From positions 1-64,000 of the forward strand of contig CALQTN020000013.1 in the NCBI GenBank assembly GCA_943333505.2: a stretch of 64,000 bases of DNA. Reading direction: 5' to 3'. Below are positions 3,911 to 19,971 of the stretch, one piece after another; positions within the stretch are counted from its first letter, which is position 1; each line of letters starts with the position of its first letter. This stretch comes from Asaia bogorensis (GTDB taxonomy: Bacteria > Pseudomonadota > Alphaproteobacteria > Acetobacterales > Acetobacteraceae). A program made the translations under genes and the position numbers. Under the pieces are notes generated by a model. That model had not been told where the DNA came from, did not search any database, and was given only the letters and a program-made list of their open reading frames with translations.

Positions 3911-5119
3911 ATGACACACACCTACCCCACCGCCGCCCCCACCGCCGCGATCATCGGCGCCGGCCCCGCCGGGCTGTCGGCCGCCGAAACCCTTGCCGAG
4001 GCCGGCTTTGCCGTCACCATCTTCGACCGCATGCCGTCCCCCGCGCGCAAATTCCTCATCGCCGGCCGCGGCGGCCTGAACCTCACGCATAGCGAGCCGC
4101 TCGACGCGGTGCTCGATCGCTACGGCGCGGCGCGGCAGGCGTTGGAACCCGCCATCCGCGCCTTTCCGCCCGAAGCGGTTATCGCCTGGGCCGAAGGGCT
4201 GGGGCAGGAAACCTTCATCGGCTCCTCGGGTCGGGTGTTTCCGAAAGCGTTGAAAGCCAGTCCGCTGCTGCGCGCCTGGCTCGCCGACCTCACCCAACTC
4301 GGCGTCAGCCTGCGTCGGCACTCCGAATGGGCCGGCTGGACCGAAGCCGGCGCGCTGCACTTTGCCGATGGGCTGGAGGTTGCCGCCGATGTGACAATTC
4401 TGGCGCTTGGTGGCGCATCCTGGCCGCGCCTCGGGGGAACCGGGGCGTGGACGAAATTCCTGCCGCCCGAGGCGATCCGGCCCTTTCAGCCGGCCAATTG
4501 CGGCTTTGCCATCCCGTGGTCCGAGGTTTTCCGCACCCGCTATGCCGGCACCCCGTTGAAGCGCATCGCCATCAGCTTTGCCGGCCGAACCCAGCGTGGT
4601 GAGGCAATGGTGACCGAAACAGGCATCGAAGGCGGGGTGATTTACGCATTTTCCGGCGCATTGCGCGAGGCCATCGCCGCCCATGGTCCGACGACACTGC
4701 ATCTCGATCTGCGTCCGGATATCGATCGCGCGGTTCTGGCGAAAAGCCTGTCGGTTCCACGCCGCGGCCAGTCGCTGTCGACCTTCCTGCGCAAGCACGC
4801 CAATCTGCCGGCAGTGGCGGTCGGGTTGGTGCAGGAGGCGCTCCACGCCGGCAGCACCGCCGATCTGGTCGATCTGGTGAAAGCGCTGCCGCTGACCCTG
4901 GTCGCCCCGAGCCCGATTGCGCGCGCGATATCATCGGCCGGCGGCGTGCGGTTCGACGCACTCGACGACCATTTCATGCTGCGTGACCGACCGGGGGTGT
5001 TCGTGGCCGGAGAAATGCTGGATTGGGAAGCGCCAACTGGCGGGTATTTGTTGCAAGCCTGTTTTAGCACGGGACGGTTTGCAGCACAGGGCGCGATCGC
5101 GTTTCAGGCGCTGCAATAG
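3911..5119 (+). CDS. TIGR03862/YhiN (HI0933) family FAD-dependent flavoprotein
   Basis: A 402-residue flavoprotein of the HI0933/BaiN group. The N-terminal Rossmann motif GAGPAGLSAAETL (about 16-28) binds FAD. The family signature GRGGLNLTHSE follows near residue 55, and the C-terminal FAD-binding piece contains GVFVAGEMLDWEAPTGGYLLQ. Substrate is unknown for this subfamily. The ATG at 3911 (MTHTYPT) is preferred over an upstream alternative start at 3851, because it places the dinucleotide-binding motif at the usual distance from the N-terminus. The gene is divergent from rmuC with 59 bases between. Its TAG stop (5117-5119) is the first three bases of a palindromic element end. Confidence 0.9.
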   Translation: MTHTYPTAAPTAAIIGAGPAGLSAAETLAEAGFAVTIFDRMPSPARKFLIAGRGGLNLTHSEPLDAVLDRYGAARQALEPAIRAFPPEAVIAWAEGLGQETFIGSSGRVFPKALKASPLLRAWLADLTQLGVSLRRHSEWAGWTEAGALHFADGLEVAADVTILALGGASWPRLGGTGAWTKFLPPEAIRPFQPANCGFAIPWSEVFRTRYAGTPLKRIAISFAGRTQRGEAMVTETGIEGGVIYAFSGALREAIAAHGPTTLHLDLRPDIDRAVLAKSLSVPRRGQSLSTFLRKHANLPAVAVGLVQEALHAGSTADLVDLVKALPLTLVAPSPIARAISSAGGVRFDALDDHFMLRDRPGVFVAGEMLDWEAPTGGYLLQACFSTGRFAAQGAIAFQALQ

Positions 5120-5158
5120 AGCGTGATCCGTTGAAGCTGGGTCAGCAGACACGCTCTA
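5117..5158 (+). repeat. diverged short copy of the TAGAGCGTG element
   Basis: Ends TAGAGCGTG (5117-5125) and CACGCTCTA (5150-5158) are perfect 9-base inverted repeats matching the ends of the element at 2014. The interior is different. The leading TAG is the stop codon of the flavoprotein gene. Confidence 0.6.
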
Positions 5159-5173
5159 AAGTCTTGTTTTCAC

Positions 5174-5217
5174 GATCATCATTCGTCCAATCGAAGCCGA
5201 TTGGACGAATGATGATC
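5174..5217. terminator. perfect 20-bp hairpin between convergent genes
   Basis: Arms 5174-5193 and 5198-5217 are perfectly complementary over 20 bases around an AAGC loop (inner part CGTCCAATCG / CGATTGGACG). It lies between the ends of the plus-strand flavoprotein gene and the minus-strand membrane-protein gene at 5227, so it probably serves as a bidirectional terminator. No clear T-run follows. Confidence 0.6.
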
Positions 5218-5226
5218 TAGCCGCCG

Positions 5227-5661
5227 TTATTTTCCCCGGGGCATGGCCGCCACCGCAATCCCAAACCCGGCCCCCATCAAAGTCACCACCACGATCAACA
5301 GCCGCAGCCGCAGCGTCAGTTCCGCCTGCTCGGTCTCGAACCGTGCCAGCATCGCCCCACGTTCGGCGGCAACCCTGGCGGCGATGTCGGCTGGCGCGAT
5401 CCCCTTGTCCTTGGGCAGGACTGCCGCCGCGCTGTCATCGAGCAGCGGGCGCAGCTTTGCCAGCGCCGGTGCTGGATCGGCCCCGGCCGCTGCCACCAGC
5501 ACCGCATCGAGCGTCACTTGCCGGTGCAGCGCGCGTTGCATCGGCAAGGGCGCAATCGCCGCGGCCATGATCCCCACCAGACCAACCACCGCGAAGCACG
5601 CGCCGATGAAGCCCATCGCCGTGCGGGATAGCCGGGTCGGCGGTTGGTCGTCTGATGCCAT
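5227..5661 (-). CDS. hypothetical two-TM membrane protein
   Basis: A 144-residue protein with two predicted membrane helices. One is near the N-terminus (FIGACFAVVGLVGIMAAAIAPL, about 17-38) and one is at the C-terminus (LRLLIVVVTLMGAGFGIAVAA). They flank an acidic/Ala-rich loop of about 75 residues that would lie on one side of the membrane. No family is recognised. The ATG at 5661 is chosen because AGGAG lies 8 bases upstream. A start at 5688 has its purine run too close, and the more upstream one lacks any. The gene is divergent from the methyltransferase at 5771. Confidence 0.7.
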   Translation of the reverse strand: MASDDQPPTRLSRTAMGFIGACFAVVGLVGIMAAAIAPLPMQRALHRQVTLDAVLVAAAGADPAPALAKLRPLLDDSAAAVLPKDKGIAPADIAARVAAERGAMLARFETEQAELTLRLRLLIVVVTLMGAGFGIAVAAMPRGK

Positions 5662-5770: not shown

Positions 5771-6712
5771 ATGTACTTACCCTCAGTTCGTGCCTGGCTC
5801 AGCCGGGTATTCAGCCGCCTTGCCAGCCCGGAACCGGGCGATGGTTCCGACCTTGATGCCCTCGCGGTTGGGCCGGTAGCCGGGTCTCGACTGCCGGCTA
5901 CCCCATCAATGATGCATTGGAACCCGTCCCGGCTGCTGGTGTCGCAGCATTTATGGGGCGATGGCTACGTAACCGCCGGAGGTGGGGGGGAAGCGAGGCA
6001 CCTCGTCACACCCATCGGGCTGTCGTCTGCGGCGACGGTCCTGTTGTTGGGGGCCGGCGCGGGTGGGGTTGCAGCGCTTATGGTCAGTGAGTTCGGCGCC
6101 TGGGTCGTGGGTTATGAGGCTGATCCCGAATTGCAGGCGGCGGCCGTTAAACATCTGCGCGTGGCGGGCTCGGCCGTTACCAAACGTGCGACGGTCGAAT
6201 TGTTCGATCCCCTGGCGCCGCAATTCCGATCGAACTTCTGTCACCACGCGGTGGTGCTCGATGCGATCCGCACGACCCCGATTGAGCCATTCCTCGGGGC
6301 GGTCAGCCTGGCGTTGAAGGCGCATGGCCAGCTCGTGATCGCGGAGTTTGTTGCCGCCGCGCCGCTCGATCTGTCCGACCCGGCAATTGCCGCCTGGTGC
6401 CGGCTGGAAGGCAGGTCGCCCGGCCTGTACAGCGAAGCGGCAATCACCCGCGCTTTGGCGGGCCTAGGGTTCGACGTTCGGGTGGTGGAGGATATTTCAG
6501 CCCGCCACATGCAACTCGCGTTGCACGGCTGGAAGGAGCTGGTGCGTAGTCTAGGGGGCGCTAAGCCGTCCACCCCGGAGGCCGCCGCAATCGTGCACGA
6601 AGCCGAATTATGGACCCGGCGTATCCGCCTGATGCATAGCGGCGCGATCCGGCTGGTGCGCTGGCACGTGCTCGGCGCGGTCCATGCGAAGGTAACGCTG
6701 GAGCCGAACTGA
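5771..6712 (+). CDS. class I SAM-dependent methyltransferase-like protein
   Basis: A 313-residue protein with a Rossmann methyltransferase core. The SAM-binding motif I is VLLLGAGAGGVAALM (about residues 89-103), with an acidic end of strand 2 in VVGYEADPE and a motif resembling post-II in NFCHHAVVLDAI. An N-terminal extension of about 80 residues carries no recognised domain. Acceptor substrate is unknown. It stands alone, with the ABC transporter operon converging on it from the right: the permease stop is at 6718, only 5 bases past this stop. A substrate cannot be assigned. Confidence 0.75.
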   Translation: MYLPSVRAWLSRVFSRLASPEPGDGSDLDALAVGPVAGSRLPATPSMMHWNPSRLLVSQHLWGDGYVTAGGGGEARHLVTPIGLSSAATVLLLGAGAGGVAALMVSEFGAWVVGYEADPELQAAAVKHLRVAGSAVTKRATVELFDPLAPQFRSNFCHHAVVLDAIRTTPIEPFLGAVSLALKAHGQLVIAEFVAAAPLDLSDPAIAAWCRLEGRSPGLYSEAAITRALAGLGFDVRVVEDISARHMQLALHGWKELVRSLGGAKPSTPEAAAIVHEAELWTRRIRLMHSGAIRLVRWHVLGAVHAKVTLEPN

Positions 6713-6717
6713 TCCGA

Positions 6718-7479
6718 TTATGCCCGCCAGCGTGCCATCCTGGTTTCGCCGCGCGACAGCAACTCGGTCAGCGCAATGCTGCACATCACCAGCGCCGCGA
6801 TTGCGGCATAGGACCCGGTGGTATCGAAATTGCCCGCGGCGAACTCGATCAGAAACCCCAGACCGCGGTTGGATGCGATCAACTCGGCGAGCAGCGTGTT
6901 GGTGAAGGCATAGCGCACCGCGATACGCATCCCGGTGAAAATCCATGGCAGGCAGGCCGGGATCAGCAGTTTGCGGACGGTCTCGAACCGGGTGGCGCCC
7001 ATCAGGCGGAAAGACTGCACCATGTCGTGATCGACATCGCGCACCCCATCGATGGTCGCGGTCAGGATCAGGAAGAACACCGTCACCCCGACAAGAGCGA
7101 TCTTGGAGCTGTTATCCACCCCCAGTACGATGATGAACAACGGCGCCAGCGCGATCTTCGGCACCGCGTACAAGGCCGACAGAAACGGTGCCAGCACCCG
7201 GTGCGCGCGGGTGAAATGCCCGAGCAGAAAACCGAACACCACGCCGAACACCGCCCCCACGACATAGCCCTGCGCCATGACCGCCAGGCTTGATTGCAGG
7301 TGAAACCACAACGTGCCGTCCAATACCCAGCGCCAGAATTGGACGGCGATCAGGCTCGGGCTGCTCATCCAGAAACGGGTGGCGCGGCTCACCGGGGCGA
7401 ATTGCCATGCCGCCATGATCAGCGCGACCAGCAGCAGCCGTGTGGCGATGCGGCCGGCCGGGTGCGCCATGAACCGCAT
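6718..7479 (-). CDS. ABC transporter permease (SsuC/TauC type)
   Basis: A 253-residue inner-membrane permease of the binding-protein-dependent family, last gene of the seven-gene minus-strand unit. It has about six hydrophobic segments, and the EAA loop follows the usual form in the region FRLMGATRFETVRKLLIPACLPWIFTGMRIA, through which it would contact the ATPase. Homologues import sulfonates, taurine, nitrate or pyrimidine precursors. The start ATG overlaps the stop of the upstream ATPase gene (TGATG), which indicates translational coupling. A second Met four codons in is an alternative start. It pairs with the other permease at 8267. Confidence 0.9.
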   Translation of the reverse strand: MRFMAHPAGRIATRLLLVALIMAAWQFAPVSRATRFWMSSPSLIAVQFWRWVLDGTLWFHLQSSLAVMAQGYVVGAVFGVVFGFLLGHFTRAHRVLAPFLSALYAVPKIALAPLFIIVLGVDNSSKIALVGVTVFFLILTATIDGVRDVDHDMVQSFRLMGATRFETVRKLLIPACLPWIFTGMRIAVRYAFTNTLLAELIASNRGLGFLIEFAAGNFDTTGSYAAIAALVMCSIALTELLSRGETRMARWRA

Positions 7480-8270
7480 CAGGCGCGTGCACCGGCAGCA
7501 ATCACATCATCCTGCATTGCATCCCACAACAGTTCATGACGGCGGGAGAAGTCTGGATCGAAGCGCGATTTGTAGACATCGCGCGGTCGGGCGAGCGGAA
7601 CCTCGTGGATGGATCGGATCCGCCCCGGGCGCCCGCTGAACGTCACGATCCGATCGGCCAATGTGAGCGCCTCGGACAGATCATGGGTGACAAACAGTAC
7701 TGTCATCCGCCGGTTCTGCGTCAGGCGCTGCAACTGGTCGAGCATGACGAGCTTCAATTGCGCATCCAACGCCCCAAATGGTTCGTCCATCAGCAGGGTT
7801 TCGGGCTCGTAGATCAGGGTACGCGCCAGTGCCGCCCGCTTGCGCATCCCGCCGGAAAGCTGGGCTGGGTAATGTTTCTCAAAGCCGCCCAATCCAACCA
7901 GCGCGATCATCTCGGCAACCCGGTCATCGGCTTCGGATTTCGCTGTCGCGCGGCATTTCAGTTCCAGCGAGACCCGGATGTTGTCCGCCGTGGTACGCCA
8001 CGGTAGCAAGGTGTCCTTCTGGGTCATGTAGCCCACCAGCCGGTTCGGCCCGGTGATCGCGGCGCCGTCATACAGAACCTGCCCGGTGCTCGGCGGCATC
8101 AGTCCGGCGACCATGTTCAGGATGGTGGATTTGCCACAGCCGCTCGGCCCGACGAGGGCGACGAATTCATGGGCGCGCACCGCAAGATCTATCGGTTGCA
8201 GCGCCTCGGTGACGGTGCCGCGCAACTGGAAGGTTTTGCCCACGCCGGCAAGTTCGATTTTGGAGGTCAT
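7479..8270 (-). CDS. ABC transporter ATP-binding protein (SsuB/TauB type)
   Basis: A 263-residue ATPase subunit with all canonical motifs: Walker A GPSGCGKST near residue 43, Q-loop in MTQKDTLLPW, signature LSGGMRKRAALARTL, Walker B TLLMDEPFGALD and switch His in FVTHDLSEAL. The LSGGM variant is common in the nitrate/sulfonate/taurine importer family. It would energise uptake through the two permeases encoded on either side (6718 and 8267). Its start overlaps the preceding permease stop by four bases (ATGA). Confidence 0.95.
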   Translation of the reverse strand: MTSKIELAGVGKTFQLRGTVTEALQPIDLAVRAHEFVALVGPSGCGKSTILNMVAGLMPPSTGQVLYDGAAITGPNRLVGYMTQKDTLLPWRTTADNIRVSLELKCRATAKSEADDRVAEMIALVGLGGFEKHYPAQLSGGMRKRAALARTLIYEPETLLMDEPFGALDAQLKLVMLDQLQRLTQNRRMTVLFVTHDLSEALTLADRIVTFSGRPGRIRSIHEVPLARPRDVYKSRFDPDFSRRHELLWDAMQDDVIAAGARA

Positions 8271-9055
8271 CGTGGGTCACTCTCGGACGGGCGCCAGCGC
8301 AGCAGGTGGGTTTCGAGGCGGGTGGATGCTTCGCTGAGCACCAGCCCAATGGTCATCAGGATGAACAGCCCCGCGAACAGCCCCGCCATGTCGTAGCGCT
8401 CACTGGACTGGCTCAACATGAAGCCCAGCCCCGCCCTGGTGGCCAGCATTTCGCCGGTGATGGTCGCGACCAGCGCGTAGGGCAGGGCGATCTTCAGCCC
8501 GCCGATGATCCACACCGTGGCGGCCGGCGCAACCACTTTGCGGAAAATTTCGCTCTGGCTCGCCCCCATCAGTTCCAAGGCGTGGACCTGATCGATGTCG
8601 ATCCGCTCGGCGCCGGCGAAGGTGTTGAAGAACAGCAGGAAGAACGTCACCAGCGCCACCAGAACGATCTTCGGCAGCATGCCAAGCCCGAGGAACATGA
8701 TGAACAGCGGTGCCAGCGCGATCAGTGGCACGCTGTAGAAAGCCACCACCACCGGGCGCAGCACCGCGGCCGTGATCGGCGACCGTCCCAGCAGCAGCCC
8801 GGCGATAATGCCGCTGGAACAGCCGATCGCCATCCCCGAGATCAGTTCGGCGAGCGAGACGGCCAGGTGCGGATAGATCGGCCCGGCGAACCACAGCATC
8901 AGCTTGCCGGCAACCTGGCTGGGCTGGCTGGTGAAGTTTGCCCCACCTGCGCGGCCCACCATCTCCCAAAGCGCCAGCAGCAGCAGGGCCAGTGCGATCT
9001 GCCAGAGAAGTGTTTGCCGGGCGGTCACCCCAGTTGTCTCATTCGGCGCGGTCAC
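8267..9055 (-). CDS. ABC transporter permease (SsuC/TauC type)
   Basis: A 262-residue integral membrane permease, second of two in the cassette, so the channel is probably a heterodimer with the product of 6718-7479. It has an N-terminal hydrophobic helix (ALALLLLALWEMVG), and the EAA-type loop appears as ALELMGASQSEIFRKVVAPA. Its ATG (9055) overlaps the stop of the binding-protein gene by four bases. The substrate specificity is not readable from the permease. Confidence 0.9.
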   Translation of the reverse strand: MTAPNETTGVTARQTLLWQIALALLLLALWEMVGRAGGANFTSQPSQVAGKLMLWFAGPIYPHLAVSLAELISGMAIGCSSGIIAGLLLGRSPITAAVLRPVVVAFYSVPLIALAPLFIMFLGLGMLPKIVLVALVTFFLLFFNTFAGAERIDIDQVHALELMGASQSEIFRKVVAPAATVWIIGGLKIALPYALVATITGEMLATRAGLGFMLSQSSERYDMAGLFAGLFILMTIGLVLSEASTRLETHLLRWRPSESDPR

Positions 9056-10086
9056 CCGCGACTCATCGATTTCAGCACCTCGGTGGCGATGGTTGGGTTG
9101 AAGACGTCGGCGAGCTTGGCCTCGATCGGCTGGCCTTTGCTGATCCGCATGAAATTGACCACGTTTTGCACCTGGCTCTCCGCTACCATCGGACTGGTCG
9201 GCACCCCGGCGCGGTATTTATTGAAGCCGATATCGTAGGCGGCCTGATCGAGGTCGGGGAAATAGCCACGCACCAGCTTGGCGGCATCGTCCTTGTGGTC
9301 ACGCACCACATCCATCGCCTTTACCCAGCTGCGCACCATCGCCACCAATAACGGCCGCTTGGCGGCGATGGTTTCCGGGCTGGTGGCCATGATGATGTAG
9401 GGCACGTTATTGGCTTCCGGCACATCGCCGTTCAGCGGTTCCAGCACAATTTGGCCGAGCTTGCGGCTGACCGCGAGTTCCGGGATCGGGGTGGTGAAGC
9501 AGAACCCGTCGGTCGCGCCGCGTTCCAGCGCCGCCATCATACCTTCGGCATTGACCAGCGGCTGGATGGTGATGTCGCGATTGGGGTCCATGCCACGCTT
9601 GTTGAGCACCGCACGGATCATGTCGTCAGTGCCCGAACCTGGCGTGGTAATGCCGATCCGCAAGCCCTTGAAGCGGCGCACTTTGTCGTCGGTGGACATG
9701 CCTGGGGTGATGCCGACCCGGGCGATCGCATCGTTGGACAGCAGGACCGACATTGGCAGGATGTTGTAGCCGGTGCAGATCGCCACGATGTTGCCGGCGC
9801 GCTGGCTCGCCTGGACCACCAGTTGCAGCCCGAGCGGCGCCACATCGGCGGAGCCCCCCATCACCGCGGCGGTCTGGCGCGGGCCGGACGATACGTTGAC
9901 CTCGTCCAGTTCCAGCCCCTCGGCCTTATAGAACCCGCCGGCCTGGGCGATGTAATGCAGGGTGAAATAGAACGCGCCGGCGCCCATCGCGAAGTTCACC
10001 TTCGTCTTGGTCTGGGCGATGGCGGGTGCGGCGAGGCTGCTCGCGAGCAGCAGGCTGGTGGCGCGGCGGGTGAGTTTCACGGTCAT
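9052..10086 (-). CDS. ABC transporter substrate-binding protein (NMT1/SsuA-like)
   Basis: A 344-residue periplasmic solute-binding protein. The Sec signal peptide is about residues 1-24 (basic MTVKLTRRAT, hydrophobic LLLASSLAAPA, likely cut after AIA). The mature N-terminus, VNFAMGAGAFYFTLHYIAQAGGFYKAEGLE, is typical of the NMT1/THI5-like fold. A GGGAGGATATAAAA stretch precedes the ATG. Family members bind sulfonates, taurine, thiamine precursors or other small organic molecules, and the ligand here cannot be assigned. The neighbouring genes suggest a small organic acid or thiol compound that is oxidised after import. Confidence 0.9.
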   Translation of the reverse strand: MTVKLTRRATSLLLASSLAAPAIAQTKTKVNFAMGAGAFYFTLHYIAQAGGFYKAEGLELDEVNVSSGPRQTAAVMGGSADVAPLGLQLVVQASQRAGNIVAICTGYNILPMSVLLSNDAIARVGITPGMSTDDKVRRFKGLRIGITTPGSGTDDMIRAVLNKRGMDPNRDITIQPLVNAEGMMAALERGATDGFCFTTPIPELAVSRKLGQIVLEPLNGDVPEANNVPYIIMATSPETIAAKRPLLVAMVRSWVKAMDVVRDHKDDAAKLVRGYFPDLDQAAYDIGFNKYRAGVPTSPMVAESQVQNVVNFMRISKGQPIEAKLADVFNPTIATEVLKSMSRG

Positions 10087-10115
10087 TTTTATATCCTCCC
10101 AAAGGCCGGCATCGG

Positions 10116-11015
10116 TCAGGTGTTCGGCGTGGCGTGCAGTTCGACGCCCGATGCACGCTCCATCGGTCGGATCACAGTGGTGACGTCATCGCCAGGTCCG
10201 CCCTCGGCCCGCGCGGTGTGATAGGCCGCGAGCACCGCTTGGGTGAGGCGGGATGGCGCGCCCGCTGCGCCCGCGTTGGCGACAAAAAGTTCGAGATCCT
10301 TGATCACCACATGCAGGCTGCCGCCATAGTCGAAGCCGCGCGTGAGCGTGTGGTTGGGAATTTTGGTCAGGGTCGCGCTGTTCTGCCCGCTGCCGTGATT
10401 GATCACCGCGAGCATCGCCTCGGCCGGGATGCCGACCTTGGCGCCGAGCAGCATCGCCTCCGACGCCACCGCGAGATTGGCGAGCGAAATCGCGTTGTTG
10501 ATCAGTTTCATCGTCTGCGCCGCTCCAGGCTGGAGGCCGAGATTGACGATGGTGCTGGCAAACGTCCGCAGCAATGGCAGGGCAAGGGCGAGGCTCTCTG
10601 CCGGCCCTGCCACCATTGCAGTAAGACTGCCATCGCGTGCCCGGCCCGGCCCGCCGGTGATCGGGGCGTCGAGCACGGCGATATCACGCCGGGCCAAGCC
10701 TTGGGCGAGTTCGACCACCAACGGTGGCCCGCTGGTGCCGAGATGCACGTAATGCCGCATCCGTCCGCCCTGGAGCAGGCCGTCCGGTCCCAGCACGGCA
10801 AGTCGGTAGTCATCGGGATCTGTCAGGCAGGCGAACACGATGTCCGCCTGGGCCGCGACACAAGCCGCCGATGTGGCGATGTTGGCAAATGGCGCAACGG
10901 CCTCGGGTCTGGTGTCGAAGACAATCACCTCGCCCATCGCCGCCAGGCGCGCTGCCATCGGCTCGCCCATCGCGCCAAGGCCGATGAACCCTACCGCTGG
11001 GCGCGCCGTGGACAC
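10116..11015 (-). CDS. NAD(P)-dependent beta-hydroxyacid dehydrogenase (3-hydroxyisobutyrate dehydrogenase family)
   Basis: A 299-residue two-domain beta-hydroxyacid dehydrogenase. The N-terminal dinucleotide motif is GFIGLGAMGEPMAARLA, the substrate-binding block PITGGPGRARDGSLT matches the DAPVSGG-type signature, and the catalytic lysine lies in AAQTMKLINNAIS. Such enzymes oxidise 3-hydroxy acids or reduce semialdehydes (3-hydroxyisobutyrate, tartronate semialdehyde, serine-type substrates). The gene starts with GTG directly after the stop of the cupin gene (no gap), which implies an operon. A specific substrate is not assigned. Confidence 0.88.
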   Translation of the reverse strand: MSTARPAVGFIGLGAMGEPMAARLAAMGEVIVFDTRPEAVAPFANIATSAACVAAQADIVFACLTDPDDYRLAVLGPDGLLQGGRMRHYVHLGTSGPPLVVELAQGLARRDIAVLDAPITGGPGRARDGSLTAMVAGPAESLALALPLLRTFASTIVNLGLQPGAAQTMKLINNAISLANLAVASEAMLLGAKVGIPAEAMLAVINHGSGQNSATLTKIPNHTLTRGFDYGGSLHVVIKDLELFVANAGAAGAPSRLTQAVLAAYHTARAEGGPGDDVTTVIRPMERASGVELHATPNT

Positions 11016-11579
11016 TCAGGCCAGCGCTTTCGGCTTGCGGGCCACGTAGCTTTTGTCCTCCGGCTTGAAATAATGCCGGATTGCCGCGTAGTGGCCGCCC
11101 ACCACGGTCAGCGAATAGGTGCCGTCTTCGAGCGCGGTGAAGCCATGGATTTCAGCCGGTTGCGCCACCAGCGAGATATCGCCGGCTTCCAGCACCCGGT
11201 CTTCCAGCACCGACAGATCGGCATATCCTTCCACCGATCCATCATCATGGCGCTGGTAAACCGTGTGCGAGACCTTGCCGCGATAGATCGCCAGGGTCTC
11301 CCACACGCCATGATCATGCGGCGGAATTTTTTTGCCCTTGGGGAACTCATCCAAGGTCATGGTCAGCAGGCCATCGTAATAGAGGTATTTCGAGTTATCG
11401 ATGTGATTGCCATCGCGCTTGACCCCGAGCGAGGTGAGGTCGGGGCAGGCCAGGACCTTGGAAAGCGGACCGCGCATGCCAGCGAGCAGGGCGGGGCCGT
11501 CTTCGCCGTGCTGCTTGATCAGGTCGATGATGGTCATCGCGCAGTCGCGGATGATTTTTTCGCTCTCGGTTGCTGACAT
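11016..11579 (-). CDS. cysteine-dioxygenase-like cupin metalloenzyme
   Basis: A 187-residue cupin of the cysteine dioxygenase/COG5553 type. The metal-binding cupin motif is PPHDHGVWETLAIYRG, with His88, His90 and a nearby Glu, and the third His is in PAEIHGFTAL. Non-haem Fe(II) thiol dioxygenases of this fold convert cysteine or 3-mercaptopropionate to sulfinates, and the exact thiol substrate cannot be read here. The gene sits between the SDR-like gene (23 bases upstream) and the dehydrogenase. Together with an SsuABC/TauABC-type importer this hints at organosulfur use. A non-sulfur role remains possible. Confidence 0.7.
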   Translation of the reverse strand: MSATESEKIIRDCAMTIIDLIKQHGEDGPALLAGMRGPLSKVLACPDLTSLGVKRDGNHIDNSKYLYYDGLLTMTLDEFPKGKKIPPHDHGVWETLAIYRGKVSHTVYQRHDDGSVEGYADLSVLEDRVLEAGDISLVAQPAEIHGFTALEDGTYSLTVVGGHYAAIRHYFKPEDKSYVARKPKALA

Positions 11580-11602
11580 GGGACTGCCTCCGTTGGGTTG
11601 GT

Positions 11603-12427
11603 TCAGGGAAAGATGCCGCGCAGTGCGCCGCCATCGATGGTGATCGACTGCCCGGTGATCGCGCCCGACAGGCGGGATGCCAGCAGCAGCACCATCGGCG
11701 CGATGTCGTCGGGTTCAATCATCCTCCCGATCGGGAAATTCGCCGCCATCTGGGCCTCGGCCTCATGGAGCGTGATGCCAAGCCGCGCTGCGCGGCCAGC
11801 GACTCGCGCGGGATGACGGCCGGTGCGGGTGACATGCGGGTGGACGGCGTTGACCAGGATCTGGTCGGCCGCGACTTCTTCGGACAGATGCTTGACGAAA
11901 TTGACCAGCGCGGAATTGCCGAGGCCCTGGGGTAGGCCAGAGCCGGTGCCCGGCTGCTCGCCGCCGCGGAACACGCTGCGCGCCGCGGTGCCGCCGATGC
12001 AGATAATCCGCCCACCGCCGCCGCGCCGCATATGCGGGATTGCCGCCCGCGTGCATTTGATCGCCACCATGGTCTTGCCCATGAAGCGTTCAAGCAACTG
12101 GCTGTCAGAGGCATCTTCCAGCGATGCCGGGACGCGGTCGACATTGGTTGATGCGTTGTTGACCAACACGTCCAGCCGACCGAAATGGGCAGCCGCCTGA
12201 TCGATCATAAGTTGGCAGGCATCTTGGGCGGTAAGATCGGTGGCGATGGCCAGGCATTGAACGCCGAGGGCGCGGATCTGTTGGGCTGCGGTTTCGAGCC
12301 GGTCTGGCGTGCGGGCGAAAATCGCGATATTAGCGCCCTCGCGGGCAAAAGCAAGCGCAAGGGCGAGGCCAATACCCTGGCTGGCACCGGTGATCGCCAC
12401 GGCAGACCCTGACAGGCCGAGATCCAT
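11603..12427 (-). CDS. SDR-family protein lacking the catalytic triad
   Basis: A 274-residue protein with a good classical SDR fold: the cofactor motif TGASQGIG (13-20), a structural NNAS (90-93) and a C-terminal GQSITIDGG. However, the active-site residues are missing. Where most SDRs have YxxxK, this one has Q167 and N171 (…LPQGLGNSALVNF…), and the usual Ser strand reads CIGGTA. An insert rich in Gly/Pro (RGGEQPGTGSG) precedes this site. It may be a pseudoenzyme or an SDR with altered chemistry. It is the first gene of the minus-strand ABC unit. A frameshift is unlikely because sequence is SDR-like on both sides. Confidence 0.8.
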   Translation of the reverse strand: MDLGLSGSAVAITGASQGIGLALALAFAREGANIAIFARTPDRLETAAQQIRALGVQCLAIATDLTAQDACQLMIDQAAAHFGRLDVLVNNASTNVDRVPASLEDASDSQLLERFMGKTMVAIKCTRAAIPHMRRGGGGRIICIGGTAARSVFRGGEQPGTGSGLPQGLGNSALVNFVKHLSEEVAADQILVNAVHPHVTRTGRHPARVAGRAARLGITLHEAEAQMAANFPIGRMIEPDDIAPMVLLLASRLSGAITGQSITIDGGALRGIFP

Positions 12428-12479
12428 GATTGCTTCACGCCCCCTCTAAGGCCCCGACGCTAGTGGGGCGAGGCTTTCC

Positions 12480-12509
12480 AAGTCAAGTTCGATGGCCCAA
12501 GCTTGACTT
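12480..12509. promoter_or_regulatory. 8-bp inverted repeat overlapping a TTGACT -35-like box
   Basis: AAGTCAAG (12480-12487) and CTTGACTT (12502-12509) are perfect inverted repeats. The second arm contains TTGACT, a good -35 match for rpmJ transcription to the right. A clear -10 is not seen, the best candidate being TTAGGC at 12525. The repeat lies in the divergent spacer between the SDR operon and rpmJ and might be an operator. Confidence 0.35.
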
Positions 12510-12569
12510 GCACGATGCCAACCATTAGGCAGCGCCCTCCATTCCACTGATCACACTAGGTCGATTGTC

Positions 12570-12695
12570 ATGAAGATCCGTAACAGCCTGAAGGCGGCCA
12601 AAATCCGCGACAAGAATTGCCGCGTCGTGCGCCGCCGTGGTCGCGTCTACGTGATCAACAAGAAGAACCCGCGCATGAAGTGCCGCCAGGGTTAA
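12570..12695 (+). CDS. rpmJ: 50S ribosomal protein bL36
   Basis: A 41-residue, very basic protein, [17 protein letters not shown]… to RMKCRQG, which is the alphaproteobacterial form of bL36. It lacks the CxxC…C…H zinc-binding set of the other form; the only cysteines are Cys17 and Cys38. bL36 binds 23S rRNA in the large subunit. It stands alone between a divergent operon and glcD, as rpmJ often does in this class when away from the main ribosomal clusters. A stem-loop follows at 12720. Confidence 0.95.
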
Positions 12696-12719
12696 GCCCC
12701 TGCTGCAGGTTTGATGTTG

Positions 12720-12748
12720 CGCCCCGGAGGCATGCTTCCGGGGCGTTT
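12720..12748 (+). terminator. rho-independent terminator candidate after rpmJ
   Basis: Arms CGCCCCGGA (12720-12728) and TCCGGGGCG (12737-12745) around an eight-base loop, followed by TTT. It lies 25 bases after the rpmJ stop and before glcD, so glcDEF probably uses its own promoter or read-through. Confidence 0.65.
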
Positions 12749-12821
12749 GCTTGTGGGGTGCGAGTTGCGCGGCGTCGTGATTGCGGCCATCGTCCCTGCC
12801 TGTTTGCGGGGGGTGCCAGCG

Positions 12822-16838: not shown

Positions 16839-17390
16839 ATGCGCATTCCTCCTACGATTCTGGCAGGCTTTGTCCTGCTCCTGGCGGCCGGATCGGCGAT
16901 TGGCCAGGGCCGCCCCGACATCGACAATCTGCTAAGCCAGCTCAGAGTTGCGCCCGACGAACAGGCGGCGGTGCTGCTGGAACGCCGCATCCGCGACGCG
17001 TGGATGAAATCCGGATCGCCGTCTGCAGTCGTTATGTTGCAACGCGGCATGCGCGAACTGGCAGCGAAAGACTTCGATCGCGCGCTCGATGCGTTTGATT
17101 CCGCCCTGGTGCTCGAACCTGACTGGACCGAAGGCTACCACCGCCGCGCCGTCGCGCGTTTCGAAGCCGGGAAATACGACCTCGCGCTCGCAGACATTCA
17201 GGCAGCCCTGGCACGTGAGCCGCGCCATTTCATGGTGTTGCAATCCCTGTCGCGGATTGCCGAGGCCCGCAAGGACTGGACGGGCGCGCTGGCGGCATTC
17301 AAACGCTGCCTCGATGTCGATCCGAAGATGCCCGGCGGCGCCGAACGGTTGGCGATGTTGCAAAATAAAGTCTCAGGGGAAGCGCTATGA
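16839..17390 (+). CDS. exported tetratricopeptide-repeat protein
   Basis: A 183-residue protein with a Sec signal peptide (MRIPPTILAGFVLLLAAGSAIGQG, likely cleavage after AIG or GQG), so it is periplasmic. The mature part carries about three TPR units: AAKDFDRALDAFDSALVLEP, FEAGKYDLALADIQAALAREP and RKDWTGALAAFKRCLDVDP. TPR proteins usually scaffold other proteins, and the partner is unknown. It overlaps the next gene (serine hydrolase) by four bases, so the two are probably co-translated and may work together. Confidence 0.85.
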   Translation: MRIPPTILAGFVLLLAAGSAIGQGRPDIDNLLSQLRVAPDEQAAVLLERRIRDAWMKSGSPSAVVMLQRGMRELAAKDFDRALDAFDSALVLEPDWTEGYHRRAVARFEAGKYDLALADIQAALAREPRHFMVLQSLSRIAEARKDWTGALAAFKRCLDVDPKMPGGAERLAMLQNKVSGEAL

Positions 17391-18427
17391 CGCCGGCCGC
17401 ATTTGCTCTTGCCCATGAAACCACCTGGCCACGCGATATTGGCGCGCATCTGGAGGCTGGCGCCTTCGAGCCGGCGCCGTGGAACGCGGTGCTTGGTCCG
17501 ACCGCAGTGCGAGGGGCGCCGAACGGGGTGCTGCTGCATCGCGGCGCGCGGATTGCGCAATGGGGCGATACACATCAGATCGACATGACCTTTAGCGTGG
17601 CGAAATCCTATCTGGCGATCCTCACCGGGCTGGCGATCGCCGATGGGTTGATCGGTGATATCGATGAGCTTGTCGGCGCGACGGTCGATGATGGCGGCTT
17701 TGCCGGGCCGCATAACGGGGCGATCACCTGGCGGCATTTGCTGACCCAGACCTCCGAATGGGAAGGCACCCTGTTCGACAAGCCTGACCAGATCGACCGC
17801 TACCGCAGCACTGCCAATGGCGGCGATGCCATGACAGGCCACAAGAAGGGCGATCCGCGGCCATTGCAGGCGCCGGGTAGCTACTGGGAATATAATGATG
17901 TCCGGGTGAACCGGCTGGCGCTGGCATTGCTGCGCCGCTTCGGGCGGTCGTTGCGCGACGTGTTCGCCGAACGGATCATGGCCCCGATCGGTGCCAGCAA
18001 TGATTGGCGCTGGGTTGGCTATCGCAATTCGATCGTATCAGTGAACGGTCACGCGGTTGAAAGTGTTTCGGGCGGCGGACATTGGGGCGGTGGCGTTTTC
18101 ATTCACGCCGAGGATCAGGCGCTGATCGGCCAGTTGATGCTGGCAGACGGGGTATGGAACGGCAGACGCCTGCTACCGCCCGGCTGGGTGGCCGCGATGT
18201 GTGCGCCCTGTCCGATCCGCCCGGATTATGGGCTGCTGTGGTGGCTCAATACCGATCGCAGCTTCAAGCCAGCCGCCAGCCCGGAAAGTTATTTCGGCCT
18301 CGGCGCGGGCGGCAACATCACCTGGATCGATCCGGCGAATGAGATCGTGGCCGTGCTACGCTGGATCGATGTGGCCGCGTTGAATGAGTGGATCGGCGTA
18401 GCGCTGGCGGCGGTGAAGCGGGGCTGA
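17387..18427 (+). CDS. serine hydrolase (class C beta-lactamase/penicillin-binding-protein-like)
   Basis: A 346-residue protein of the beta-lactamase/esterase fold. The SxxK motif is S70-VAK73 in MTFSVAKSYLAIL, and the second motif is an EYND in place of the usual YxN. A C-terminal HWGGGVF-like/GAGGNITW strand could play the role of the KTG-like region. No signal peptide is visible, so it could be cytoplasmic. Members of this family act as esterases, D-amino-acid peptidases or beta-lactamases, and no substrate can be assigned. It starts on ATGA within the TPR gene and converges with the methyltransferase at 18430. Confidence 0.85.
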   Translation: MTPAAFALAHETTWPRDIGAHLEAGAFEPAPWNAVLGPTAVRGAPNGVLLHRGARIAQWGDTHQIDMTFSVAKSYLAILTGLAIADGLIGDIDELVGATVDDGGFAGPHNGAITWRHLLTQTSEWEGTLFDKPDQIDRYRSTANGGDAMTGHKKGDPRPLQAPGSYWEYNDVRVNRLALALLRRFGRSLRDVFAERIMAPIGASNDWRWVGYRNSIVSVNGHAVESVSGGGHWGGGVFIHAEDQALIGQLMLADGVWNGRRLLPPGWVAAMCAPCPIRPDYGLLWWLNTDRSFKPAASPESYFGLGAGGNITWIDPANEIVAVLRWIDVAALNEWIGVALAAVKRG

Positions 18428-18429
18428 GG

Positions 18430-19971
18430 CTATACAATCCCCAGCGCACGCAGCAGCGGCACGCGCTGATCGATGAACTCGCCGAGTGCGCGCTCCAGCT
18501 CTGCGATGGTTTCATCATCGGACATGATCTTCTCGCCGTTCTTGATGATCCGCTCTCCCAGACGGGACATCAACCGCCAGACATAGCGTGCCAGCGCAGG
18601 CGCATCGCCAAGCCCCTGCTGCATCCCCAGCAGGCACATCTGCTGCACCCGGAAAACCGGGACCCCGCCGCCGATCACTGGGGAGGCGAGATAGGCAATC
18701 ACGCTGTTGCCGACTGCGTTGTTATCCATGACGTGCTGATTGAAGGCGCGACATTGGGCCAAGGTTTCCGCGCTCGGGGTTTGCGTCGGCCCAAGATGCC
18801 CGGCACCGGTGAGCAGCAGCAGGATCGCATGAAGTTTGTCGACGGTCAGATGCGCGAGGCCGGGCACCGTGAGCAACTGATCGATCGATTTTGGCGCATA
18901 GTTCTGCGCGGCCAGTGCGGCAATCAACGGGGTGAATACCGGCTCAGGGATGGTCGCCTCGCTGAACGGGCCAGGGTTTTTGGCAGGCACGTCGTTCAGC
19001 GAGGTCAGCAGGATGTAGGGCTGTGCCCGCAACGCCGCCCAACGCCGCACCGGTGACAACCGCCTGGGGCCCTTGATGAAAATATCGCGCCGGAAACCCT
19101 GATTGGTCAGGCAATCGCGGGTCGCCTCGCGCAGCACCGGATGGGAGATGGTGGCGAGCAATTGCTGGCCTTCCGGCGGCAAACAAATGGCGTCTATATG
19201 GTTCAGCAAGTAGGCTGAGGTCGCGTAGCTGAGCTTGGCCTGTTCCATACGCGCGGCGAAATCGGCAAAGCCCATCACCCGCCAGTCCGGCACGAAATAT
19301 TCGTGGGCAAGATAGTCCCTGCCTTGATCGGTGAGGCTTTGCAGCTTGGCATCGAGGCCCGGATTGGCGCGAAAATAGACCGAGTTGGCGTCGATCAATG
19401 TGCGTGCAAAGCCGATTGCCCCATCTATGCCGGCCGCCATGCCATCGGCGGCACTGCCGGCAAGGTCTGAATGCAGTTTCATCAGATTACGCAATGGCAG
19501 CAACGGCGCCATGCCCGGCAGACAGTTATAGCTGGCATAAACCATGCCGCCGACCCGCAGCTTGCGACGGATCAGATCGATGACGATCTGGCCATCGGCC
19601 TCGGAAATCCAGCTCCACACGCCATGCAGGGCGATGACATCGAAGTCCGGCAAATCAGGGCGGGCGGCGAAATCGGCGAAACTGTCATCGAACAGCATCG
19701 CCTGCGCGCCCGATGCCGCGACCAGTTCCTGGGCGTGGGCGGCGTGGCTGGGGTTATAATCAGTGCCCCAGAAGGTGCCCGCATTCGATGCGGCATGAAG
19801 TGCCACGTCCACACCCTGGCCAAAGCCGAGTTCGAGATAGCGCGTCGGCCCGTCCGGTGCCGGTGCGAAACCGGCATCAAGACAGGCCAGACGCAGGATC
19901 GCCGGGCAAAGCTCACGATAATAGCCGAAGCTATAGGCGATTTCCGCGGGCTTGCTCGACATCCAGGTCAT
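18430..19971 (-). CDS. SAM-dependent methyltransferase with methyltransferase regulatory domain
   Basis: A 513-residue protein. The N-terminal class I methyltransferase core has motif I YLELGFGQGVDVALHA (about 46-61), then WGTDYNPSHAAHA and DFDVIALHGVWSWI. The middle region (about 220-400) resembles the methyltransferase regulatory domain found fused to such enzymes, and the C-terminal part is helical. The methyl acceptor is unknown. The start at 19971 has a GGAT-like site, and a Met three codons later is an alternative. The ECH gene starts upstream with a short gap, so the two could share a transcript. The stop lies two bases from the convergent serine-hydrolase gene. Confidence 0.8.
   Translation of the reverse strand: MTWMSSKPAEIAYSFGYYRELCPAILRLACLDAGFAPAPDGPTRYLELGFGQGVDVALHAASNAGTFWGTDYNPSHAAHAQELVAASGAQAMLFDDSFADFAARPDLPDFDVIALHGVWSWISEADGQIVIDLIRRKLRVGGMVYASYNCLPGMAPLLPLRNLMKLHSDLAGSAADGMAAGIDGAIGFARTLIDANSVYFRANPGLDAKLQSLTDQGRDYLAHEYFVPDWRVMGFADFAARMEQAKLSYATSAYLLNHIDAICLPPEGQQLLATISHPVLREATRDCLTNQGFRRDIFIKGPRRLSPVRRWAALRAQPYILLTSLNDVPAKNPGPFSEATIPEPVFTPLIAALAAQNYAPKSIDQLLTVPGLAHLTVDKLHAILLLLTGAGHLGPTQTPSAETLAQCRAFNQHVMDNNAVGNSVIAYLASPVIGGGVPVFRVQQMCLLGMQQGLGDAPALARYVWRLMSRLGERIIKNGEKIMSDDETIAELERALGEFIDQRVPLLRALGIV

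Follow-up and report, generated by a model that had tools for sequence, protein, structure and literature searches.

An accessory importer-linked operon of Asaia bogorensis and its thiol-dioxygenase-fold cupin with a conserved glutamate at the putative metal site

Positions 6718 to 12427 of a 64,000-nucleotide stretch of Asaia bogorensis DNA (contig CALQTN020000013.1, positions 1 to 64,000; hereafter, the window) carry seven co-directional genes on the minus strand. In 5' to 3' order they code for a short-chain dehydrogenase/reductase (SDR)-fold protein, a cupin, a beta-hydroxyacid dehydrogenase, and the binding protein, permease, ATPase and second permease of an ATP-binding cassette (ABC) importer. 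We tentatively regard this cassette, with a little less than an even chance, as an accessory operon that couples an importer to the breakdown of a small carboxylic acid; its cupin would have a four-ligand metal site and probably does not act on thiols. A previous sequence-only reading had proposed the uptake and oxidation of a thiol or sulfonate-like compound. Of that proposal, the combination of an importer with oxidation-type enzymes holds, but a thiol or sulfonate as the substrate is not supported by the present analysis: the cupin has a glutamate (Glu94) at its putative metal site, has lost the Ser-His-Tyr motif and falls outside the clade of the mercaptosuccinate dioxygenase 8vni, the importer scores below the relevant family cut-offs, and in another genome of the order (G823) the transport and dehydrogenase genes occur without the cupin.

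The cupin and its putative metal site

The cupin gene (11016..11579, minus strand) yields no Pfam or NCBIfam match at E<=0.001. The closest solved sequence is that of 8vni (2.5e-7 with the single query and 2.5e-12 with a 12-member profile). The AlphaFold model, with a predicted local distance difference test score (pLDDT) of 92.4, was compared with known structures by Foldseek and VIA-align, giving Z values of 18.6 for 8vni, 17.7 for 3-mercaptopropionate dioxygenase (3MDO), 15.8 for cysteine dioxygenase (CDO), 15.7 for PCO and 14.7 for ADO. By its predicted model the cupin is thus a structural relative of the thiol dioxygenases, in a fold with N-terminal helices, and its earlier assignment to this group stands.

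Thiol dioxygenases are the textbook example of a cupin metal site that has three His residues but lacks a carboxylate. The 3-His coordination is described in the excerpted text of one source as strictly conserved throughout the superfamily (PMC8503633). We aligned 20 members of the cupin family with 36 more distant relatives, leaving out weaker matches of the class search for which no locus had been fetched. The HxH, Glu and distal His noted earlier were borne out, H88, H90, Glu94 and H145 being invariant in 20/20 members, where the three His residues occupy the ligand positions. The first motif reads G82-x5-H88-x-H90-x3-E94-x6-G101, which is the canonical form of cupin motif 1, with its Glu. 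The site of Glu94, equivalent to Cys93 of CDO and Gly95 of 3MDO, is occupied by Glu in none of the 36 relatives (Ala in 21, Gly in 7, Cys in 4, Ile in 2, Phe in 1 and Val in 1); in four of these a one-residue insertion renders the alignment at this site less certain, and none of them has a Glu within 10 residues past the HxH. From its position in the alignment, we infer that Glu94 serves as a fourth metal ligand, and this extra acidic residue means that the chemistry of the cupin may differ from that of the thiol dioxygenases.

Small-molecule thiol dioxygenases share the 3-His triad, the CDO_I fold and the Ser-His-Tyr motif, according to an excerpt of PMC13194613. In the cupin family, positions 158 and 160 of this motif are occupied by Thr in 20/20 members and by Val in 19 members and Ala in one, respectively. 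With a Glu at the fourth-ligand site and the Ser-His-Tyr motif lost, the cupin, as judged by the alignment, fails some of the features that define the CDO, 3MDO and mercaptosuccinate dioxygenase (MSDO) enzymes.

A tree of 57 rows unites the cupin family in a single clade (support 100/99), which sits on a long stem and does not include 8vni. The latter, represented by residues 9-156 only, groups with PAR_L006, L031, L035, L036 and L040 (support 100/100), which places the cupin outside the mercaptosuccinate dioxygenase clade. The sister group of the cupin family is unsure, since long branches meet in the tree (as the tool itself warned).

Individual comparisons follow the same lines. The cupin resembles 8vni in fold (Z 18.6, 2.5 A over 173 residues, 20% identity), in the HxH and distal His, and in a VYxRxDDGS stretch, whereas 8vni has an Ala at the position of Glu94 and belongs to a separate clade. 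The 3MDO structures (4tlf, 4wvz and 6xb9) share the fold (Z 17.1-17.7) and an Arg aligned with Arg168, but they have Gly95 in place of the Glu and an intact Ser-His-Tyr motif; a PDB title names a G95C variant. A Glu at the equivalent position is found in the C93E variant of rat CDO (6u4l, Z 15.8), where it was engineered, as opposed to the natural, invariant Glu of the cupin family. Coupling is reportedly impaired in this variant.

Cupin dimethylsulfoniopropionate lyases and the auxin-binding protein share the pattern HxHxxxE...H. The cupin could work without oxygen, either as a lyase or isomerase that depends on a metal or as a sensor, an alternative that we consider unlikely. The full canonical cupin motif would fit it, as would the auxin-binding protein 1lr5 (Z 13.0), the first structural row that is not a dioxygenase, and the dehydratase-like TIM barrels and MaoC hydratases that adjoin members of the family. 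However, 1lr5 ranks under 47 thiol dioxygenase rows among the best 50, and no lyase family was matched, either in NCBIfam (no match) or among the eight families found in a search with 12 members.

Two further observations concern related cupins. Loci L034, L037, L045 and L047 have a one-residue insertion after the HxH, with Arg and Val/Ile/Thr replacing the His and Tyr, and represent a further deviant group of the same fold. The genome of the window itself codes for a second thiol-dioxygenase-like cupin (L002, contig C90) with the sequence HDHGIWC, common to loci L008, L010 and L013 of the genus.

The importer and its occurrence without the cupin

The importer consists of a permease (6718..7479, minus strand; BPD_transp_1, 1.3e-24; 84% identical to its counterpart at locus L049 and 53% to that at L103), an ATPase (7479..8270, minus strand; ABC_tran, 2.7e-31), the other permease (8267..9055, minus strand; BPD_transp_1, 2.7e-25; 74% identical to that of L049) and an NMT1-type periplasmic binding protein (9052..10086, minus strand; NMT1_2, 2.2e-23, and also NMT1). 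These Pfam families, together with those of the enzymes described below, confirm that an importer is combined with oxidation-type enzymes.

By their sequences the subunits belong to the SsuA/TauA/Nrt superfamily, and to this extent the previous placement of the importer with sulfonate, taurine and nitrate systems holds. The substrate-specific part of that placement does not, as no subunit attains an NCBIfam sulfonate, taurine or nitrate cut-off, and the margins are wide. The permease at 6718-7479 scores 98.2 against a cut-off of 347 for SsuC, 97.2 against 342 for TauC and 85.2 against 209 for ntrB; the permease at 8267-9055 scores 79.2 against 347 for SsuC; the binding protein scores 52.1 bits against 163.5 for SsuA_fam; and the top model for the ATPase, among the best 25 of 187, is ntrCD with 201 bits against 291.8. 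The importer is therefore like SsuABC, TauABC and NrtABC in superfamily and subunit types, but unlike them in having two dissimilar permeases and scores far under the cut-offs. The nearest solved chain to the binding protein, 3qsl, is titled only "Putative exported protein", and the predicted model of the binding protein is poor (pLDDT 58.6).

At E<=1e-40 the binding protein was found in 2/299 genomes of the order, i.e., that of the window and G823. In G823, genes for the dehydrogenase, the binding protein and the three other transport proteins lie together (38-68% identical to those of the window), and the 19.9-kb stretch contains neither a cupin nor an SDR match. A family-level match to the cupin is also absent from G823 as a whole and from the four further genomes of the window's genus. 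All five contain one distant relative each, with E values from 1e-8 to 9e-13; that of G823 has an E of 5e-11, as compared with E<1e-80 for family members in the genome searches. The importer and dehydrogenase thus occur as a unit without the cupin, which favours a hydroxy acid over a thiol as the substrate. Three plasmid loci code for more distant relatives, 27-30% identical to the binding protein, and two of these loci (L090 and L091, but not L089) have an annotated SDR and an NAD(P)-dependent oxidoreductase nearby.

Distribution of the cupin and the case for a sulfur substrate

The cupin family is rare: members were detected in 8/385 genomes of the class (<1e-45), 4/395 of the order and 1/398 of the phylum, the window's own genome included each time and with at most 8 candidates scored per genome in the order and phylum searches. 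Within three families centred on carriers, it was found in 9/13, 5/11 and 2/2 genomes. A search of plasmids gave a single record, from Azospirillum brasilense.

The window and 20 further loci were sorted by the genes that accompany the cupin. (i) Type A comprises the window and L049. (ii) Type B comprises nine loci, including that of Azospirillum brasilense, with ThuA, SDR3, TauD and an amidohydrolase in 9/9 (the amidohydrolase of L058 being truncated by the contig end), a TIM barrel and a second SDR in 8/9, an NMT1-type ABC importer in 7 loci and a TAXI-TRAP system in 2 loci. The nearest relative of the amidohydrolase is ACMSD, for which reason a ring-cleavage role of the cupin was considered, and the TauD protein, with a score of 190.8, falls short of the cut-off for taurine dioxygenase (313). 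(iii) Type C comprises eight loci of one family, with a class II aldolase, the cupin and TauE in 8/8. MaoC, RidA, a second MaoC and a ligase, nearest to phenylacetate-CoA ligases, are complete in 7/8; in L053, MaoC and the ligase are present as pieces, RidA and the second MaoC are missing, and TauE matches in two pieces. Of the two remaining loci, L084 has the cupin beside a TauD-like protein (32%), an SDR-like protein (34%) and an SDR 54% identical to that of the window, and L051 has none of the type A, B or C neighbours. In the type C locus L085, four consecutive TauD-like matches (16968-19869, 31-43% identity) lie about 7 kb from the cupin locus. The literature searched contains no description of this cupin clade or of the type B operon, and none that pairs a thiol dioxygenase with a 3-His-1-Glu site.

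Several of our own results weigh against a sulfur-free substrate. The strongest counter-evidence is provided by the neighbours in the other operon types, since TauE-family genes (8/8 loci of type C) and TauD-family genes (9/9 loci of type B) would fit a sulfur substrate. TauE (PF01925) is a broad family, and sulfite export is said to be known for one of its members. In addition, thiol dioxygenases fill ranks 1-47 of the best 50 structural rows. The His-Tyr pair is also lacking in 8/36 of the more distant relatives (28/36 retain both residues), so its loss is less distinctive than Glu94, and Arg168 is common to the family (20/20) and to 30/36 relatives. This residue aligns with an Arg of 3MDO to which the excerpted part of PMC8050391 ascribes carboxylate binding; the same excerpt reports that activity does not depend on the Ser-His-Tyr residues, and this part of the dioxygenase test carries less weight accordingly.

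These points would suit a route in which a mercapto-carboxylate is imported, the cupin oxidizes it to a sulfinate from which sulfite is lost, and the dehydrogenase takes the remaining hydroxyacid skeleton. Besides the fold, the nearest solved sequence and the aligned Arg168, two other lines of evidence are consistent with it: the PCO_ADO profile is matched at E<=10 by 9/12 cupin members (best 1.2e-8; the window cupin gives no match), and mercaptosuccinate use with sulfite release and possible export by TauE is described in an excerpt of PMC5373536. The excerpt also lists the gene neighbours of the Advenella MSDO gene, namely rhodanese, cystathionine beta-lyase and an amino-acid-type ABC importer, a setting that differs from that of the cassette. 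Against this route stand the presence of Glu94 and the loss of the His and Tyr in 20/20 members. With E<=10 as the limit, the 12 members together hit eight families, of which CDO_I (PF05995) is not one, and Pfam assigns no sulfite-handling family to any of the seven genes of the cassette. We therefore hold the thiol route to be doubtful, though a serious contender. Gene neighbourhoods, a comparison already suggested by the sequence-only reading, point in both directions, with TauE and TauD on one side and the cupin-free unit of G823 on the other. On balance, we rate a sulfur-free small carboxylate as the likelier substrate, by a modest margin over a thiol.

The dehydrogenase and the SDR-fold protein

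The product of 10116..11015 (minus strand) passes as a beta-hydroxyacid dehydrogenase of the 3-hydroxyisobutyrate/tartronate semialdehyde reductase family by both of its predicted domains, NAD_binding_2 and NAD_binding_11. Its nearest solved chains are 1wp4 and 1vpd, and no NCBIfam equivalog cut-off is reached (best 152.9 against 397).

The gene at 11603..12427 (minus strand) was previously described as SDR-like. This is correct for the cofactor fold, with adh_short matched in Pfam and the glycine-rich cofactor motif retained in the alignment, but the catalytic residues are missing: Ser is replaced by Gly, Tyr by Gln or Ser, and Lys by Asn, in agreement among the window, L049 and L084, whereas YxxxK is present in the canonical SDRs aligned with them. 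Yet the gene is under purifying selection (dN 0.16 and dS 0.93 against L049; dN/dS about 0.17). The protein therefore probably serves some purpose apart from the usual oxidation of alcohols.

Conservation and accessory status of the operon

All seven open reading frames were confirmed at their coordinates. Overlaps of 1, 4 and 4 bases link the four transport genes, and the remaining intergenic gaps are 29, 0 and 23 bases. The earlier observation of seven minus-strand genes in this order holds. A promoter scan of 6600-12800 gave 0 hits, against 0.9 expected.

L049, which is counted as a single genome together with CAIRTN010000311.1 (an uncultured Rhodospirillales metagenome-assembled genome, Umea2_bin-1848), possesses all seven genes in identical order with 70-84% identity. 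Between the two loci dS is 0.64-1.01 and dN 0.13-0.22 per site, giving dN/dS ratios of 0.15-0.25 across the seven genes, the value for the dehydrogenase being derived from a 185-codon part only. The low ratios indicate that the proteins are maintained by purifying selection and, combined with the recurring order, that the arrangement is not due to chance. In L049 the dehydrogenase gene is found in two pieces in different frames (4405-5258), which may reflect decay or an assembly error. The same locus contains a pair of enolase-superfamily genes like acid-sugar dehydratases (7066-9305), divergent from the cassette.

The DNA of four other genomes of the genus matches that of the window up to a point between 6666 and 6713 and again from a point between 12478 and 12517; between these two matches they carry 7 to 69 bases in place of the cassette. 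In L104 the left junction is an 88-base match at 78% only, where its contig begins. This empty site means that the seven-gene cassette is accessory within the genus; the segment concerned (6714..12477) has glcD on one side and a methyltransferase-like gene on the other. As to possible mobile-element boundaries, 6661-6780 and 12421-12540 share no exact repeat, direct or inverted, of 8 bases or longer. The composition does not set the segment apart (GC content 0.639, against 0.612 on the left side, 0.642 on the right side and 0.637 in the window).

A functional tie to the adjoining glcDEF (glycolate oxidase) genes was rejected. In the four genomes that lack the cassette, glcD stays by the methyltransferase-like gene; glcDEF is thus resident and the cassette accessory, so their adjacency is no evidence for the function of the latter.

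The inactive-looking SDR, the split dehydrogenase gene of L049 and the absence of the segment from the four genomes could together suggest an operon in decay, whose SDR has already lost its activity. All seven genes, however, show the low dN/dS given above, the copies in the window are open, and the split in L049 is possibly an assembly error; we consider a relic of this kind highly improbable.

Proposed function and implications

In the carboxylic acid operon that we favour, the binding protein would capture a small hydroxy or oxo carboxylate, which the ABC unit would then import. The dehydrogenase may oxidize an alcohol, or reduce a semialdehyde, of the imported acid or an intermediate. The cupin would act as a 3-His-1-Glu metal enzyme in which the invariant Arg168 holds the substrate carboxylate, and would cleave or oxygenate the substrate at carbon, such that no sulfinate is made. 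The SDR-fold protein may play a non-canonical role, either non-redox or accessory.

It is conceivable, at somewhat under even likelihood, that the cupin family represents a natural clade of the thiol-dioxygenase fold in which the canonical Glu acts as a fourth metal ligand and has thereby turned the reaction from the oxygenation of sulfur to another one, the family serving as a step common to three or more dissimilar operon types of alphaproteobacteria, including the present cassette. A clade with a natural, conserved carboxylate (20/20 aligned) would offer a direct test of whether a change of ligand determines the reaction, and may provide a handle on the three alphaproteobacterial operon types.

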